This document shows positions 10,986 to 64,000 of a stretch of DNA of 64,000 nucleotides, one piece after another; position 1 is the stretch's first letter, and the number at the start of each line of letters is the position of its first letter. Position numbers and translations under genes: made by a program. The notes under the pieces were generated by a model that was given only the letters and a program-made list of their open reading frames with translations, was not told the origin of the DNA and did no database searches. The stretch covers positions 70,176,659 through 70,240,658 of the forward strand of contig CM049313.1 in the NCBI GenBank assembly GCA_026874595.1, written 5' to 3'. The DNA comes from Sipunculus nudus (Eukaryota; Annelida; Sipuncula; Golfingiida; Sipunculidae).

Positions 10986-11594
10986 ACGGTGGCTCGTATA
11001 GGACATGCACAAAATTATTTTTATCTCGTTCCCACGAGATAGTATCTCGTTCCCACGCGTTAGTATCTCGTGCCCACGCGATAATTATCTCGTTCCCACG
11101 CGTTAGTATCTCGTGGCCACGCGATAATTATCTCGTTCCCACGCGTTAGTATCTCGTTCCCACGCGTTAGTATCTCGTGCCCACGCGTTAGTATCTCGTT
11201 CCCACGCGTTAGTATCTCGTTCCCACGCGATAATATCGCGTGGCCACGCGATAATTATCGCGTGGGAACGAGATAAATGTAGATAGTTAATACAGTAAGA
11301 CCTACATCTTAAATCCTTGAGGCATGCTTCTATACACTGGATGAAGACTATGGTCAATTATTTGCATGAATTTAGAGCGGACTTAATATGCTGAGAAATG
11401 AAATGATACAACGGGCACTCGTACAACACTCGTGGGCCATGTTTGTCTGGGGAATGTGTTAGTGGGGAAAGGGGGGGGGGGGGGCTAGTTCGTGTAAAAT
11501 ATTTTTCATTATATATAAATGTTCACAATATAAATTACCATTGGCAGCGAAACCAAATTTTCATTGGGAGCCCTATAGATACTATACCCAAATA

Positions 11595-12142: not shown

Positions 12143-12699
12143 ACGGTTTCGCCGCCTTTGAATACATAACTGAAGTTTTATTGTAGAAAGAAAAACGTGA
12201 AGGGGAAGAATGAGCACATTTCTCGTAAAAAGTTCTCCTTAACCACTCCTCCCAGTCATAATGAAGTGTCATGGCTGAGACCTTTCGTTGTAAGCTTCTC
12301 CCTTGAGACATAACACAAACCGACATGTTGTTTACCCTGTTCTGTATACCCGAAATTAAATAACCCCAACCCTAGTCCTAAAAAATAAGATTTTCTGGAA
12401 AGGTAAAATACAAACAAGTGTTTCAGTTTAATTCATGTTTGGTACACAAGGGTTTATATCACCCTTACCCCAAAACAAACTCAATACAGTTTTCCATGAA
12501 CAAATAAAAATGGGCTAGTTGAACCAACGCAATGAAATGGTGAACCAACGAAATGAAAACTGCTGAAATTTACCTCAAAGCATTCGGCGCACACACATAC
12601 AACGAAATACATACAAACAATTTAAGCTGCATCGACAATTGATATAAAACAGACCACAGACATTCTTGTCCAAATGAGGGCTTAAGCTATAGCATGGCA

Positions 12700-12952
12700 T
12701 ACTAACGCGTGGCCACGCGATACTAACGCGTGGGAACGAGAGAATTATCGCGTGGGAACGAGATACTGTCTCGTAGGAACGAGATAATTATCGCGTGGCC
12801 ACGAGATATTATCGCGTGGGAACGAGTTAATTATCGCGTGGGAACGAGATACTATCTCGTGGGAACGAGATAATTATCGCGTGGCCACGAGATACTATCG
12901 AGTGGGAACGAGATAAAAAATAATTTTGTGCATGTCCTATACGAGCCACCGT
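12700..12952 (-). repeat. Right inverted repeat of the foldback element
   Basis: Reverse-complement partner of 10986-11275. It contains several ATCGCGTGGCCACG-type subunits. Because GTGGCCAC is itself palindromic, single subunits can also fold on themselves. Confidence 0.8.
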
Positions 12953-55567: not shown

Positions 55568-55664
55568 TACTATGGCACCGATAATATGGTGCCGAGAAAT
55601 ATCTTGTTTACAGGGGCATGGTCCTTATCTACAGGTGGTTCGTGTTAGGTAGTTTTATTGTATA

Positions 55665-55809
55665 TGTAACGGGTGAAAATAGAAACCAGGCCCGAATGTG
55701 GGTTCGAACCCGTAACCTGTGACACACAAGTCAGACGTTCTACCGCTTCGCTAATAAAGCAAGCTTCACTAGCAAGGCCAGTAGGAACGCTTTTGTGTGT
55801 CCGGTTACA
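55665..55809 (-). repeat. 3' LTR of the TRIM (minus-strand sense)
   Basis: Same content as the other LTR: A box at 55753-55743, B box at 55711-55701, and a T run where the forward strand reads GGTGAAAATAG. The two differences from the 5' LTR are at base 11 (G for T) and in CTTCACTAG for CTTCGCTAG, both outside the A and B boxes. Confidence 0.8.
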
Positions 55810-55810
55810 T

Positions 55811-55825
55811 TCACCCCCTCTCCGA
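55811..55825 (-). other. Polypurine tract of the TRIM
   Basis: CGGAGAGGGGGTGAA on the minus strand directly precedes the downstream LTR. It is purine-rich as required for plus-strand priming. Confidence 0.65.
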
Positions 55826-55914
55826 GGACGTTCTGTCCCCAGAACGTGGGATCTATCCCGGGGGTCACACACGTGAACTGGGTGGGGCATCATGCCACGA
55901 CACCAACTCCCCGG

Positions 55915-55932
55915 ATCCCACCGCTGCCACCA
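55915..55932 (-). other. Primer-binding site matching tRNA-Leu(UAG)
   Basis: TGGTGGCAGCGGTGGGAT on the minus strand is complementary to the 3' end of animal tRNA-Leu(UAG) including CCA (ATCCCACCGCTGCCACCA), recalled from knowledge of that tRNA. It starts one base inside the LTR, where LTR elements place this site. Confidence 0.75.
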
Positions 55933-55933
55933 T

Positions 55934-56078
55934 TGTAACGGGTTAAAATAGAAACCAGGCCCGAATGTGGGTTCGAACCCGTAACCTGTGACACACAAGT
56001 CAGACGTTCTACCGCTTCGCTAATAAAGCAAGCTTCGCTAGCAAGGCCAGTAGGAACGCTTTTGTGTGTCCGGTTACA
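55934..56078 (-). repeat. 5' LTR of the TRIM (minus-strand sense), with A box, B box and T4 stop
   Basis: Reading the minus strand, TAGCGAAGCGG (56022-56012) fits the A-box consensus TRGYNNARNNGG, GGTTCGAACCC (55979-55969) fits the B box, and TTTT (55948-55945) follows. The A-to-B spacing of about 43 bases is that of a tRNA gene. The stretch between them (TAGAACGTCTGACTTGTGTG and on) looks tRNA-derived, but the acceptor ends do not pair, so it is not a working tRNA. Confidence 0.75.
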
Positions 56079-56814
56079 TATATATATATATATATAATAT
56101 CCATATATAGGCCTACTACCCCACCGCCAACCACAAAGTATATATTAGCGTTGTTTCAGCTATTATTAAAATTTGCAAGTAATAATTTCTTATAATGTAT
56201 AATAAAATGAAAATAATAAAACTGTTAACTGTTCACGCATGAATGCAACGCTAGAACAGAAGTCAGATCATGTTCTTGTATGGCAAATAATTAAGGAAAT
56301 ATTATGTTCGCATAATAAACATTTATATATGAATTTGGATGGGGAACACATTTTCATTATTCATGGCTGTATGGGTTTGATGCTTCAAGATAAAGAGGTA
56401 ATTGCTTCTGCAGCTGGACCTTAATTGGTGAATGAAGAGAGAGAATGTGAATATCACACAGACCCCACACCGGAGCAGATAAATCTGTCAGATCCAATAT
56501 ACACTGGGAAATTATATACAAGGAGCGATCCCTTTATAGTGTGCATGATGCCCTTGTCAGCTTGTCTTCCACGTATGGGTAGGCTTAGTGTACACATAAA
56601 AGTTTATTTCTTGGTTACTTAGACACACTTTGGATTAATTATTTATTAATGACCTTGCGATTATAAAATATATCATATTTCTGCGAGATGTTTCACAGTG
56701 GTTCTATTAATGATGTATGATATTCTGAGCCCATACATAGTATATGACATATATGGGCCTAAAAGAAGAGTTAAGGTGAGTTGCTCTGTGAATTTTTTGA
56801 AGATATATTATTTT

Positions 56815-56871
<57 letters not shown>

Positions 56872-57570
56872 TTATTTATTTATATTAAAAGGTTCCACAA
56901 ACTTGTGCCCAACTCCTCATTGAAAACATAATGCACACGTGCACATGAGAAAGATACATGAACCTTATTTCCTGCAAAGGATCAAAATATATATACACAC
57001 TCATTCATGAACATTCAAGAAATAAAATTGATAATTAGTCCTTGAAGCTTTAATTTAACCACATCCGGGCCATTAAGCTAGGTTCATTGGTCATGCACAA
57101 GTAAACAAAGAAAAAAAAAAGAAAATAAAAGAATGTACACATTTGATTTATGATGATGTCATGTATAAACATATTTTTGAAGTAACTACATACATATATA
57201 GCAAAAACAAAGATGGCGGATTTCTTTTTAAAGATGGCCGATCTTGAAAAGACATTTGATTAATAAAGAAATAGCCTATAACTTGCGAGTATATAAGAAA
57301 AGAAATAGCGTCGCACTATAGGTTATCATTCCCATGCATTTGTACTTTCTCTGATATTAACACGGGTGCATATACAAAAACTAAAGGGTGCTTGAAATCG
57401 GCAAAGGAACCTAACTATAGATAAATTAATGTAAACACCTAAATTTAAAAAGGTCTTGGTCCGCAACTTGTAACTTTTTTTATGCCGGTGAGCGTCTTTT
57501 ACAAAACATATGAGAGCGTCTTTTCATGGCATAAGCTATAGCTTGAAAATATGAATCTGATATAAATAGG

Positions 57571-57575
<5 letters not shown>
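56079..57575. other. AT-rich intronic sequence with (AT)n runs
   Basis: AT runs lie at 56079-56097 and 56826-56868. A span at 56239-56622 is open apart from one TAA at 56422 but has no recognised motif. Confidence 0.5.

Positions 57576-57620
<45 letters not shown>
57572..57620. repeat. (AT)n microsatellite just upstream of the propeptide exon
   Basis: An AT run that ends 26 bp before the splice acceptor. Confidence 0.95.
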
Positions 57621-57622
<2 letters not shown>

Positions 57623-57646
57623 ATATTTATCATCCTTTTTTTTCAG

Positions 57647-58032
57647 CTGCTTTCCTGCGTTCTTTGGATGATTACCATGTAGTGTTTCCAAGTCGCGTCA
57701 CGGAGGAGGGAAATTTTCTGTCTCACGTGATCCACCACGAGAGGACAATGGAGAGTACGAGGAGACGCCGAGATGTGTCCGAGCAAAATCGGCAATCTCC
57801 GGAGGAAAAAATTCATTATAAATTATCTGTGAAAAATATGGACCTACATTTACGTTTACAACCAAACGATCGTTTGTTGAGTCCATCAGTGATGGTAGAA
57901 AGGAGGAAAAGCCGATATCTCAATGTCTCGGATTCTAAATTACACAGGATATCACATAATCGATGTCATTTTACCGGAGACATAAAGAATCACGACCATT
58001 CCCGAGTGGCTTTGGCAACTTGCGGGGGACTG
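57647..58032 (+). CDS. ADAMTS-family metalloprotease, propeptide exon
   Basis: The exon lies between a strong acceptor (CATCCTTTTTTTTCAG) and donor (CTG|GTAAGT). It begins with two bases completing a codon, then encodes 128 residues and ends in phase 0. The protein matches the M12B/ADAMTS propeptide layout: DDYHVVFPSRV...GNFLSHV near the start, a polybasic TRRRRD (57757-57774) that could be a furin-type site, HYKLS...DLHLRLQPNDRLLSP in the middle, then RCHFTGDI and SRVALATCGGL, the paired cysteines and GL at the point where ADAMTS propeptides lead towards the furin site and catalytic domain. NVS (57922) is a possible N-glycosylation site. ADAMTS enzymes are secreted zinc proteases that process extracellular matrix. 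The zinc-binding HExxH, disintegrin-like and thrombospondin parts are outside the window. LHLRL-PN-RL...P resembles the ADAMTS2/3/14 group, but the subfamily is not resolved. Confidence 0.85.
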
Positions 58033-60727
58033 GTAAGTAAATAAATTATCAGTTTAAATTGTAGTATATTATAATATTAGTGTTGTATGTACTTTAAAAC
58101 AACAAAAAAATAGAATATCTACAGGTATTTTAAATGATATAAATATCCTAAATGATATGTTGTCTACGTGATTGGCTTAATTTGTATGAATACCTTGATA
58201 GCGTCTAACCTTGGAGTCTTTATGGTGGGTATTCCCGGTAGATGGCGCTTACCATCCACCACATCTAAACACTTTTTTAAGAGCTTCGGTGTTATCCTAA
58301 ACAGTATCAGACACATCATTATTGAGCAAGCAAACAATAATTGTTGCAGTTAAGATATTAGACCACACACCTTTTGGTGTACGCATTTGAAATTTTTGTT
58401 TGAGGGAAGGTACAAGTCTAATATCCTACAGAGCTGGATTACAAGAACCAATTTCCACACAGGAAGCGTCTCAACAAACTTGGAATAGATCAGTGTCGCG
58501 TAAGCCAAATAAGCAGTTAGTATCAAATAAGCAATTTTCTAATCACCTGAACTTGCTCAGAACCTGAAGCAGGTAAGTACCGATGTCATATCAAAGATTA
58601 ATAATCTCAATAATCCAGGCCTTTCTAGGGGCATTATTTCTGCTCTCTTCCACAATAATATATTATTAATATTTTTTCTTAATATTATTATTTAATATAT
58701 TATATTTATAAATGATATTTTTTCTAATGAAATTTCCCTTTCTAACACAATTTATAATACAGACAGTACATAACTGCCCCCTCCCATTCAAACTTTTAAT
58801 GAAAAAGTCCCCAACTCAAGCATTGGAAAAACAGTATTGTCACTTCATCTCCAACTTCCAAGTGGATATCCTTCACATTACGTCATAAGCACCAGGCTTA
58901 ATATTCAGGCCATATTTCTTGGATTATGGGTGTTACAAAAACATAAATGCACATTTAAGAATGTTTATTGATCCATTAAAATTAAATGGCTTAGATGTTC
59001 CTTACAAGTTTCCCAAATATGATGTGTACACATACATATCTTTGACATTGTCAGTTTTTGAAACCAGACGCAAATCAATGGCCAGCCCGATTCACTCTCT
59101 CACTTCATGAGTCATGGGTAACTGTTTTATTGTTTAATAATGTCACAACTAATGAAATTTTCAATTCAGTAAATTTCATGATCATTGGATGTATTACTTT
59201 GATGATTTAGGAGATCAATTGAATAATGTTCATTACAGGATGGCCTTGTTTTGTAGCAAACAGCTTGATAAAGGAACTTTGAAATTCACATGATGTATTA
59301 ACCTTTAAGTTTGAAATCATTTTGTGTACTGAATTCTTTTACTGAGAATTAAGCTGACTCTTTTAGAAATATAGGTTTCAAGGACTCTAATCTGTGACCA
59401 AGAAGTTTAATTAAGTGCATAAAAAGTCTGGAGTGCCCTTAAGGTATGAACTGGTACATGTTATAACTTACATATGTACCTAAAAATATATCAAATTACA
59501 AATTCAAAGAAATGACCATAAAAAATACCACGCTGGGTACATTCTTGTTTGCTATACTTCAGAAAATTACAAGCAAGTGAAACTACATGCTACAACTAGT
59601 TTGGTCTTTAACCTCTGTAATAAAATGGTCATTTTGTATTGTATAATACTGTTGACCTGCACTCAGTAACTCCAGGAAGGAGGGTGGCGGCTTATAAGTC
59701 CATACCACATGACAGCAATCTATCCAGCCATCAACAAAATCTGTTTTCACAGACAAGACACTTGCTTTCAGTACAAAACCCATCAATGGTCAAGCTATCT
59801 GACTGGAGCAGCTATCAGCACAGTGCAGGGGTCAATGCTGTTGTGTTACAGGCTCTGGAGAGGGTAAAGTGTTGTCAGATCATTTATGGCAGTATCAGCA
59901 ACACCCATCCCAGCCCTTCCAGTCATGAGAGTGAGCTGATGTGCTGTAACTGTCATAATCAGCAGCGCATTGACTCAGCACATGTGGTCAGAGTGTTCAC
60001 ATTGTGTAACCTTATGATAGCCTATCTGTTCCTGTAGTGGCCATTACTGGATAAAGTGTCCCGTACAAGTGCACTGAAGACTACTCAAGTGGCTTAAGCA
60101 CTGGTTATCTCAAACCTAAATTATTTAGGTGTCTAGACTTGGTAAACAAACCAGAAGTATCCAGATCCAGTAACAACAACCCCAGGTAAAAGTAACCTGT
60201 TCCAATAACAAACCTAAAGTGCACACAGGTGATTCTTTGCTCATCATCATCAAGTGGTATTTACTTAAGATTCATTGACAAAATTCCATGACTTTGTTCT
60301 TGAGGTGTTTTATTCTGCTTCACTGGTCTCCTACTGCTTGAGAATAATTGGTATGTTGAGTACTTACTTGTGTGCAGAGAAACAAAGGCAACATTTTCCA
60401 GATTAATGAGGCACTTTTTTGTTCAAAAATAGAGAAAGATAATCTCAGTTCTCATAAACATAAGCATACAATACTTGTTCGGTGTATGTATAAATATGAG
60501 AAAACCCTGTACCAGTATTATATACAGTGGCTGTAACCAGATCCAATCAGTGACAGAAAAGTAGTGAATATATCATAACCATATATGTATTAATTACAGA
60601 TGTGTCTTTAATATGGGTCCCTCTGTAAAAATATTTCGAGATAACAGGGTACCTTATACTTGGCGCAGGTACAATATTGGTACATGAGTTTTGAGTACTG
60701 ACCAACCATCCCCCCATCCTATACCAG
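58033..60727 (+). other. Intron 2 of the ADAMTS gene, proximal part
   Basis: No next ADAMTS exon (propeptide end, furin site or HExxH) was found between the donor at 58033 and the window end. The stretch is AT-rich and slightly richer in unique-looking sequence than intron 1. An open frame at 59639-60037 is described separately. Confidence 0.5.
59639..60037 (+). other. Unrecognised open frame of 132 codons
   Basis: The frame includes KLSDWSSYQHSAGVNAVVLQ and later CCNCHNQQRIDSAHVV. Possible splice signals are present (AGGAAGG near 59672 and GAGAGGGTAAAG near 59861). No family is recognised and the composition is not clearly coding. It could be a chance frame, a fragment of an old mobile-element gene, or an exon of an unknown transcript. 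Confidence 0.2.
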
Positions 60728-62486
60728 GAGAGGTGCTTTTCTTGTATTCTCCCTCCAAGACAGGTTCATCTTCATTTGTACTCTTGCCTGGACAGATTTT
60801 CTATTTGTGGTTCCCACCAGAGTAGGTTCTTCACTTTGTTTTCCTATAAGGACAGGTTCTTCTCTTTGTTTTATATCCAGGACAGGTTCTTGTCTTTGTG
60901 TTTTACAATTTGGACAGGTTCTTCTCATTATGTTTTCCCACCAGGACAGGTTCTTCTCATCACTTTTTTCCACCAGGAAAGTTTCTTCTCTTCATTTTCT
61001 AACCAGGGCAGGTTCTTCAATTTCTGTTTCCCCATGAGGATATGTTCATCTTTGTGTTTTCCCACAAGGACAGGTTCTTTTAATTATGTTTCCCACCAGG
61101 ACAGGTTCTTCTCTTTGTTTTCCTTTCAGGACAGGTTCTTATTTTAGTGTTTTTCCAACAGGACAGGTTCTGCTCTTTGTGTTTACCCAACAGGACAGGT
61201 TCTTCTTGTTATGTTTTCCCACTAGGACGGGTTCTTCTCTTTGTTTTCCCATCAGGACAAGTTCTTCTTTTAGTGTTTTTCCAACAGGACAGGTTCTCCT
61301 CTTTGTGTTTTCCCACCAGGACAGGTTCTTCTCCTTATGTTTTCCCACTAGGACGGGTTCTTCTCTTGTTTTCCCATCAGGATAGTCTCTTTTTGTTTTC
61401 AAACAGGACAGGGTCTTCTCTTTGTTTTCCTACCAAGACAGGTTCTTCTCTTTTTTTTTTCCCATCATGACAGGTTCTTTTCTTTGTTTTCTCACCTGGA
61501 CAGGTTCTTATCTTTGTGTTTTCCGGTGAGGATATGTTCTCATCTTTGTGTTTTCTCACACACACAGGTTCTTCCTATTGTGTTTCCCACCAGGACAGGT
61601 TCTTCACTTTGTTTTTTTCCCAACAGGACAGTGTCTTCTCTTTGTTTTCCCACCAGGACAGGTTCTTATCTTTGTGTTTTCGGGTGAGGATATGTTCTCT
61701 TCTTTGTGTTTTCCCACACAGATAGGTTCTTCTTCTAATTGTGTTTCCCACCAGGACAAGTTCTTCACTTTGTTTTCCATTCAGGACAGGTTCTTCTTTT
61801 GTGTTTTCCCAACAGGACAGGTTCTCCTCTTTGTGTTTTTTCCCAAAAGGACAGGTTCTTCACATTATGTTTTCCCACCAGGACAGGTTCTTCTCTTTGT
61901 GTTTTCCCACAGGATAGGTTTTTCTCATTACATTTTTCCACTAGGACAGGTTCTTCTCATCACTTTTTTCCCACCAGGACAGGTTCTTCTCTTCATTTTC
62001 TAACCAGGACAGGTTCTTCAATTTGTGTTTTCCCATAAGGATATGTTCTCTTCTTTGTGTTTTCCCACAAGGACAGGTTCTTCTAATTGTGTTTCCCACT
62101 AGGACAGGTTCTTCTTTTTGTTTTCCCTTCAGGACAGGTTCTTCTTTTTGTGTTCCCAACAGGACGGGTTTGCCTTTTTGTGTTTTCTCACCAGGACAGG
62201 TTTTTCTCTTTGTTTACTCACTAGGACAGGTTCTCCTCTTTGTGTTTTTCATTAGGACAGTTTCTCTTTGTTTTCCCACCTCGATAGGTTCTTCTCTTTT
62301 TTCCCCACAAGGATATGTTCTCCTCTTTGTGTTTCTCCATGAGGACATGTTCTCCTCTTTGTGTTTTTCCATGAGGACATTTTCTCCACTTTGTGCTTTC
62401 CCATGAGGACATTTTCTCCACTTTGTGTTTCCCACTAGGACAGGTTTTTCTCTTTTTTTTCCCTTCAGGACAAGTTCTTCTCTGTA
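60728..62486 (+). repeat. Minisatellite of about 31 bp, roughly 55 units, 1.76 kb
   Basis: Units follow TTTTCCCACCAGGACAGGTT plus CTTCTCTTTGTG, with lengths of about 24-37 bp and substitutions. The + strand is pyrimidine-rich, so few stops occur and many false frames appear on both strands (TGSSLCFPTR and KNLSWWEN types). Blocks of several units recur as larger segments (for example the region from about 60940 resembles that from about 61940), showing higher-order duplication. Confidence 0.93.
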
Positions 62487-64000
62487 TGGTTAATTCATCA
62501 ATTTGATGAACTGACATGTGTACAGTGTTTAATAGATTCATTGAAAAGATTGTATCCATGTACGCATGTTTACTTATGATGTACCTTGGGCTGTTTATGG
62601 TACTTAGTGCTAGATGGAAAAACACTATAATTCTAACAGCCACAGGAGAAGAGAACAGCTGTTTAAAGCAGGACTATCTGTATAATTGCTTGGTGTCTGT
62701 AAAAAAACCAAAACAAAGGAAATCAAAAAAGCTCACAGTGATACCTAGTGTCACAATACATCTGTCATGTATCAGTGGCTCTTTTTGGCTTACTAGAAGT
62801 ATTGCTGATGCATCTTACATGGTAAATAAGCACATGTTGAGATTCCAAGGATTTTTTTTTAGAATTTATGTCATCTTCATATATTTTTTTCTAGAAAAGG
62901 AATCTTTTGTGTATTTAAATAAGCCTTTTGTAAGTTTAGAGTTAAAGTAATAATTTAAAGTTTAAAGAAATTTCCACTTTAAATGCTCTTATTTTTTTCT
63001 TATGCTGGGAAGGGTCTTGGGGCTGGTTTTTTTTTTTTTTTTTGTTCTCAGATGTTTTTCATTGTATCTCCAGACTGAAGGTCAGGGAAACTAGTTTCAG
63101 CATAATTGCACTGACCTTAAGTGTTTGTTGGTAAGGTAACCAACAAAAAAAATTTGATTCAAATTTTCTTTTAATTGTGCATAGGCATATTTATTGGGCA
63201 GATTTCTTTCCATTGAACAAGACAAGTGGCTCCACCTATTCGGCACATCAGAAGACAGATCTATGCCAATGTGATTAGTTGGGGCAGCTGCAAATCTGCC
63301 TCACTTAAGATGTAAATTCAAACCTAACAAGACACTGCAGGTTTTGATTGAATACAGACAAGTGTCACCCCCCTGGCTCTACGTGATAACTTTACAACGG
63401 ATATATCCTATAAAACAATAGGATGGGTTAACGCTCGCCACTTGATTTCATTAATCAAGAAATTAGATCCCGGTGATTACAGGTGACATTTCCAGGTTCT
63501 TTTAAGGACGTGTATAAAAATACCAGACAATCATACACCCAGATCAATAGAAACTATGAGACATCAGGTTAAATTCACAAATATAATTCAAGACAATACT
63601 TACAAAGACGTAGATGTGAGTTTGTGTGCATTGATGTGTCAATACGACAGTCCTTCACATTAAAAATACAGGATATTTACCGAGTCCATGGTTTGTATAA
63701 AAACGATAAAGTCCAGTTCCTTCAGAGATCTCTGGTTACTGTTTTGTGTAGAATCTAGCGTATGGTTAGCACCATATAGTCTTTCTGAGTTTAGCGATCT
63801 TCAACTGATCTTGCTTGACAGCGACCCGTGTAGGATTACGTTCTCAATGTATTGCAATAGCTCTCTTTGTTTACATGAACTAGGCCGGCAGGTGACGAGC
63901 GCGCTCTCTCTATATCGCCAATACGAAGCTCTGTCGGCAGCACGGCTGAGTTCTCATGAGCTGGGTCCTTGCTTCATGTAGAAGCTTGCTTCTATGCCGT
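62487..64000. other. Intron 2 continued, nothing recognised
   Basis: AT-rich to 63.3 kb with poly(T) at 63028-63043. The last 300 bp are GC-richer, with a 97-codon frame (63688-63981) that shows no motif. No further ADAMTS exon is seen. Confidence 0.5.

Follow-up and report, generated by a model that had tools for sequence, protein, structure and literature searches.

The 414-bp element described here belongs to a kind that is already known, and what is new are apparent copies of its tRNA primer, fossilized beside it in the genome, and a recombinant joined through its primer-binding site (PBS). It lies in the window, i.e., the whole stretch of 64,000 nucleotides analyzed from Sipunculus nudus (contig CM049313.1, positions 70,176,659 to 70,240,658). 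We consider it very probable that the element, as a non-autonomous LTR retrotransposon, is of the Helenus/TRIMp3 kind; it would be transcribed by RNA polymerase III (Pol III), primed by tRNA-Leu and served in trans by the enzymes of Gypsy-type elements. Next to the element, the primer seems to have been preserved, including what is probably an editing mark and the points at which copying stopped. These fossils and the recombinant link a TRIM whose promoter is of the Pol III type to the normal reverse transcription of LTR elements, and yield helper candidates that can be tested.

Anatomy of the Element

The following features have been assigned; all positions are those of the window.

55665-56078, minus strand: whole element, LTR-interior-LTR, 414 bp
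55934-56078, minus strand: 5' LTR, 145 bp, ends TGTAAC...GTTACA
55665-55809, minus strand: 3' LTR, 145 bp, two differences from the 5' LTR
55810-55933, minus strand: interior, 124 bp, without a detected gene
55915-55932, minus strand: PBS TGGTGGCAGCGGTGGGAT, complementary at 18 of 18 positions to the 3' end of mature tRNA-Leu(AAG/TAG)
55810-55823, minus strand: polypurine tract (PPT) GGAGAGGGGGTGAA
56012-56022, minus strand: A box TAGCGAAGCGG of the 5' LTR (3' LTR counterpart at 55743-55753)
55969-55979, minus strand: B box GGTTCGAACC of the 5' LTR (3' LTR counterpart at 55700-55710)
55945-55948, minus strand: TTTT of the 5' LTR, a possible Pol III stop (3' LTR counterpart at 55676-55679)
55981-56077, minus strand: imperfect inverted repeat forming one long hairpin, in which LTR positions 2-47 mirror the tRNA-like positions 49-98
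55661-55664, no strand: left target duplication TATA, from flank comparison
56079-56082, no strand: right target duplication TATA, from flank comparison

Read along the minus strand, a single A separates the 5' LTR from the PBS, and the PPT stands directly before the 3' LTR; the two LTRs differ at LTR positions 42 and 135. Copies L003 and L010 carry an extra 5' remnant of the PPT upstream of the first LTR. The preliminary description had given 145-bp LTRs with these ends and two differences, which have been the same on remeasurement, and its PBS, PPT and gene-less 124-bp interior have likewise been confirmed in the sequence. A 124-aa stop-to-stop frame overlapping the interior has matched no Pfam family up to E 0.1, and blastn has found no second copy of the element within the 64-kb window. 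The local TATA/TATA duplication sits inside a TA repeat and is uninformative alone, so that the other copies decide.

Elsewhere in the window, an open frame at 57547-58044 (plus strand), ∼1.5 kb from the element, encodes a reprolysin-family (ADAM-type) propeptide (E 9.8e-21), to which nothing similar has been found among solved structures. Short tandem arrays at 11001-11298 and 12682-12917 form an inverted pair with units of the ATCTCGT/CACGCG type, and a tandem repeat of ∼1.7 kb at 60801-62488, with a unit of roughly 31-32 bp, holds long open frames in several phases.

A tRNA-Type Promoter Inside the LTR

The A box and B box lie 43 nt apart, with one pair per LTR, and by the patterns used neither strand of the window holds another pair; the chance expectation from 100 dinucleotide shuffles is 0.02 pairs per window for a strict A box and 0.18 for a loose one. 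As the preliminary description had stated, both boxes at tRNA spacing and a TTTT are present on the minus strand of each LTR, and its reading of a TRIM with a tRNA-type promoter is upheld in both parts by the anatomy and the boxes. Neither ARAGORN in its default setting nor Rfam at the gathering threshold has detected a tRNA in the element, and Rfam has offered no tRNA match to it up to E 10. Relaxed ARAGORN has returned a degenerate 72-nt structure (tRNA-?, Thr|His) at LTR positions 50-121 of both LTRs, and doubtful structures in the flanks as well. A functional tRNA gene has been rejected, as neither program calls one at normal thresholds, and the block is read as a tRNA-type promoter. The 19-nt stretch around the A box has had 0 matches among viral contigs.

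The LTR also folds on itself as a single long hairpin, which reaches −56.5 kcal/mol (z −5.15), a stability attained by none of 200 shuffles, and its self-complement score of 34 exceeds the maximum of 33 found in 1000 shuffles (mean 14.1); 4 of 320 window stretches of the same length fold equally well or better. The first ∼46 bases match the reverse complement of the tRNA-like block imperfectly, and the palindrome could have arisen by an inverted duplication of tRNA-like sequence.

Transcription by Pol III would begin a short distance before the A box of the 5' LTR, would sometimes pass the weak T4 of this LTR and would end with the T4 of the 3' LTR; the resulting RNA, of roughly 360 nt, would have redundant termini. 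A point against this mechanism is that the first T4 would cut most Pol III transcripts short. The same hindrance to a full-length Pol III RNA speaks for an alternative that we hold to be unlikely, namely that Pol II transcribes the element as it would any ordinary TRIM and that the tRNA-like block is carried along as a passenger. It is opposed by the presence of both boxes at the correct spacing in both LTRs, and variation among the copies bears on it from both sides. For this variation, 72 LTRs and 39 interiors of nearly full length from 39 loci have been compared, and shorter pieces have been left out. The LTR columns show 1.56 changes on average, and the A box, with 28 changes over 11 columns (2.55 per column), exceeds this mean, as a passenger might; 21 of the 28, however, are A/G exchanges at the R position, and 7 fall at other sites. 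The B box has accumulated 3 changes over its 11 columns in the 72 LTRs (0.27 per column) and LTR positions 50-118 have 0.86 per column, compared with 1.18 in positions 1-49 and 4.04 in positions 119-145, which argues weakly against a passenger, as the copies are young. All four T of the T4 are intact in 67 of the 72 LTRs, the remaining 5 having a gap at the first T, and the PBS shows 2 changes over 18 columns in the 39 interiors. Because the family is young, the variation of the boxes would be weak evidence of selection in either direction. The preliminary description had made its reading depend on box conservation among copies, which is evident for the B box and less clear for the A box. Pol III transcription of the element remains the reading that we prefer.

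Genomic Fossils of the tRNA-Leu Primer

The PBS is identical to the reverse complement of the last 18 nt of tRNA-Leu(AAG/TAG), as given in a table of PMC8698603. The host possesses tRNA-Leu genes with the anticodons AAG and TAG (L117 and L118), both without CCA. A dense tandem cluster of tRNA-Leu genes has been noticed on contig C5 (52594037-52636341), where AAG and TAG genes are interleaved and genes of like type often lie ∼1.6 kb apart. When the PBS was prolonged by TTCGAACCCA, i.e., into the tRNA-Leu, an exact-match search has yielded 3 sites in the genome, all of them at the LTR of this TRIM. On contig C3 (L010), 58 nt of mature tRNA-Leu stand at the end of a TRIM array; the copy stops just before tRNA position 26 and deviates at a single base, reading G at position 34 (nt 51 counted from the 3' end). 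Both flanks of L010 hold CCAGTC, for which a duplication or microhomology is possible. On contig C8 (L111), a 47-nt copy, altered by a single C-to-T change at nt 28, stops right before position 37, where the sequence jumps into the TRIM interior, and the element has TACA on both flanks. On contig C11 (L107), a single LTR is followed by tRNA-Leu over at least 50 nt, or 54 nt when the TAG gene is taken as reference, and a run of bases permits a TAAA duplication to be read on both sides; this copy agrees with the TAG gene and has no editing mark.

The core of tRNA-Leu has 50 exact matches in the genome. G at position 34 (TTGAGGC) occurs in the C3 copy only, and the other 49, namely the C11 copy and 48 elsewhere, have A or T (TTAAGGC or TTTAGGC); any tRNA-Leu gene whose core has diverged would escape this exact-match search. 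Inosine pairs with C, so that a copied inosine-34 becomes G. Positions 26 and 37 of tRNA-Leu presumably bear blocking methyl groups. Based on the conversion of inosine to G by reverse transcriptase and on the A or T in the other 49 matches, we think it likely that the C3 copy is a genomic fossil of a wobble-edited tRNA, in which the inosine-34 of the primer has been written into the chromosome, and that the ends before positions 26 and 37 mark modifications that block reverse transcriptase. The putative inosine mark is carried by one copy. In the review PMC13191261, tRNA-Leu(AAG) is reported to have more than 90% I34 in Vero cells and in virus produced there, and plus-strand synthesis of HIV-1 on tRNA-Lys to stop at modified positions of the tRNA, 58 and 37 among them. 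Mature tRNA-Leu would prime reverse transcription of the TRIM at the PBS, and plus-strand synthesis would copy the LTR and then the primer, normally over 18 nt and rarely further, steps that the genomic fossils support.

That the tRNA-Leu stretches beside the LTRs have arisen by genomic recombination with tRNA genes, and not from primer RNA, appears quite improbable to us. The lone G34 could be a chance mutation, albeit by our estimate a ∼1% event (a hit on this site among 58, with G as the outcome in one third to two thirds of cases), and the C11 copy equals the TAG gene without any mark. All three stretches, however, begin at the PBS and include the CCA that L117 and L118 lack, a partial argument as the CCA could derive from the PBS, and the two clear ends adjoin positions 26 and 37.

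Copying of the primer beyond the PBS has also been compared with ordinary junctions. The exact pattern GTTACA, 1-3 bases, PBS and C occurs 77 times in the genome (reversed control 0), and 66 of the occurrences, in which the spacer is A, AA or TA, have been taken as TRIM junctions. Sites at which A, G or T comes next after the PBS number 118 (reversed control 0); subtraction of the 3 fossils and of L084 leaves ∼114 other Leu PBS sites, with LTR status checked in 20 sampled ones. Over-copying has been seen 3 times beside the 66 ordinary TRIM junctions and at 0 of the ∼114 other sites (P 0.05), so that an excess in the TRIM is suggestive only. Among the listed papers on primer read-through and inosine, no such genomic fossil has come up in a title or abstract opening, which is no proof of absence. 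If the reading is true, TRIMs that over-copy their primer would be natural recorders of tRNA modification.

A Recombinant at the Shared PBS and Candidate Helpers

Locus L084 reads from a Gypsy-like LTR end through the PBS into TRIM interior and TRIM LTR, and from there through a second PBS into the leader of the same Gypsy-like family. It matches L110 over ∼700 nt upstream (91%) and L091, from the same place as L110, over 132 nt downstream (96%), in both cases to the limit compared. L084 is a TRIM copy fused to a Gypsy-like LTR element through the shared PBS; the label Gypsy-like for L110 is based on its PBS and layout, and no long open frame is present in the 1.6 kb read there.

From the 118 PBS sites, of which 100 were listed, 20 have been fetched, and 5 of these belong to one family, in which the LTR ends in GTTACA and a single T separates it from the same PBS. 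Its LTR measures ∼335 bp and starts with TGTAAT (two copies compared, start placed by eye). The family has yielded gag with a zinc knuckle (L108), protease and reverse transcriptase (L115) and integrase (L114 and L116), as pieces from different copies. At L108/L114 and at L116, the integrase follows close behind gag and apparently leaves no room for the reverse transcriptase seen in L115. Within at most 9 bases of the PBS, TTACA occurs at 8 of the 20 sites (the five family copies, L090, L091 and the TRIM copy L106) and is absent from 12. In a third LTR family, GTTACA is followed by TAT and the PBS (three nearly identical copies, L119, L120 and L123). The TRIM interior has shown no convincing similarity beyond the PBS to 25 fetched stretches, L106 among them being a TRIM copy itself. 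The preliminary description had looked to a larger element with matching LTR ends; the combination of GTTACA end and PBS is indeed shared, and gag, protease, reverse transcriptase and integrase have been recovered only in pieces from different copies. We infer that Gypsy-type elements with the same PBS and TTACA end supply the enzymes in trans.

Genomic Copies and Target Duplications

The window's own genome (1.4265 Gb) has been searched for copies, with 40 of 884 candidates scored, and 44 of the 47 matches listed span at least 407 of the 414 bases at 94-100% identity. The LTR alone has given 833 candidates and the interior 267, numbers that are not copy counts. The host genome contains dozens of near-identical dispersed copies, as well as solo LTRs (L049, L056 and L058, 1.5 kb inspected on each side) and short tandem arrays with shared LTRs (L010/L013, L023/L025 and L024), which are a minority of the fetched loci, most of them being dispersed. 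The paired LTRs are identical in 8 of 24 copies and differ on average at 2.4 positions; L121 and L124 represent older TRIM copies that have diverged. The element family is real, young and gene-less.

Target duplications have been scored in 30 copies, namely 26 of L001-L030 together with L049, L053, L056 and L058; L010, L011, L013 and L025 have been left out as cropped arrays, inverted pair or duplicate, and the fetched copies L059/L111, L064, L067, L077, L080, L084, L107, L121 and L124 are outside this set. Matching flank 4-mers are present in 20 of the 30 copies and missing in 10, compared with a mean of 11.8 and a maximum of 18 in 5000 shuffled pairings. Many of the duplications are uninformative, their targets being TATA. 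After removal of the TATA/TATA pairs, 6 of 16 copies retain a matching 4-mer (TATG, CATA, TAAA, TACA, TGAG and ATTC), where 1.95 would be expected (P 0.005). Flanks matching over 3 or 5 bp have been found in 0 of 30 copies, and those matching over 6 bp in 7, all within TA repeats. TA repeats are touched by 17 of the 30 insertions and cover 1.8% of window positions. Insertion thus produces 4-bp duplications, and TA repeats are strongly preferred as targets.

The preliminary description had expected copies in the genome, solo LTRs and target duplications, all of which have been found, and would have given way to a tandem satellite, from which the mostly dispersed copies depart. That the element is a SINE or a satellite instead is scarcely credible, for despite the tRNA-like block and the tandem arrays, PBS and PPT are in place, 4-bp duplications and tRNA-Leu copied beside the LTR are observed, the arrays are a minority, and the solo LTR L056 with its own ATTC/ATTC duplication refutes either one as the sole explanation.

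Relation to Helenus and Other TRIMs

Helenus (TRIMp3; Kojima 2024, PMC10886601) comprises TRIMs whose LTRs are tRNA-like, whose PBS is Gypsy-like and which, in animals, have duplications of 4 bp. With 51 families in pteriomorph bivalves, it runs counter to the preliminary description, in which no described molluscan example was known; the origin as a SINE/LTR hybrid is likewise a speculation already published. In Helenus, priming and helper use have been deduced from complementarity and common primer sites, and Pol III transcription is expected, not validated (PMC10886601). A full-text literature search for Helenus with retrotransposon and tRNA has returned PMC10886601 alone.

The present element shares with Helenus the short LTR-interior-LTR layout (414 bp, two LTRs, no transposition genes), an A and B box in each LTR with YGG and GGTTC present, a PBS to a tRNA 3' end, a PPT, the 4-bp target duplication seen in animals, solo LTRs, and a PBS common to a Gypsy-type element of the same genome, for which a Gypsy-type helper is proposed in both cases. 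Every feature tested has been found, and by description the element belongs with the Helenus TRIMs already published. Tandem arrays, likewise shared, are known for Helenus from one fish family. Differences lie in the A box, of which the fifth base is G here (TRGCG), whereas most, not all, Helenus A boxes are TRGCY (PMC10886601), and in the imperfect palindrome of the tRNA-like block, which is absent from the main text of PMC10886601. Helenus PBSs correspond to Lys, His, Ile, Pro, Glu and Ser in bivalves and to Leu in wasps and vertebrates; the present one corresponds to Leu.

Three further systems can be compared. Cassandra (PMC7215508), a plant TRIM, likewise has a Pol III promoter inside the LTR, no genes and tandem arrays, but differs in its 5S rRNA promoter, its plant hosts and another PBS; Rfam has matched no 5S to our LTR. 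The bivalve TRIM biv-TRIM (Satovic 2019, PMC6934838) is similar in its solo repeats and tandem copies, but has repeats of 202-218 bp and an interior of 77-80 bp in contrast to 145 and 124 bp here, and it has no clear canonical PBS and, in the description consulted, no tRNA promoter is named. Its interior motif TGATCCCAAAGGAC is absent, by eye, from the 124-bp interior. Steamer (PMC8905726) shares the LTR start TGTAAC and a PBS to a tRNA-Leu, but uses another tRNA-Leu tail (TGGTGTCAGAAG) and is an autonomous element.

COX1 Contigs in the Assembly

Apart from the element, the assembly has been found to contain nine COX1 genes of nearly equal score that are open in the standard code (contigs C60, C61, C62, C66, C72, C74, C75 and C89), and one further COX1 on C123. 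The best GTDB relatives of the C60 gene are 57-58% identical, with none above 58% among the 80 best matches listed, from which close records may be missing. These contigs possibly represent genomes of associated bacteria.
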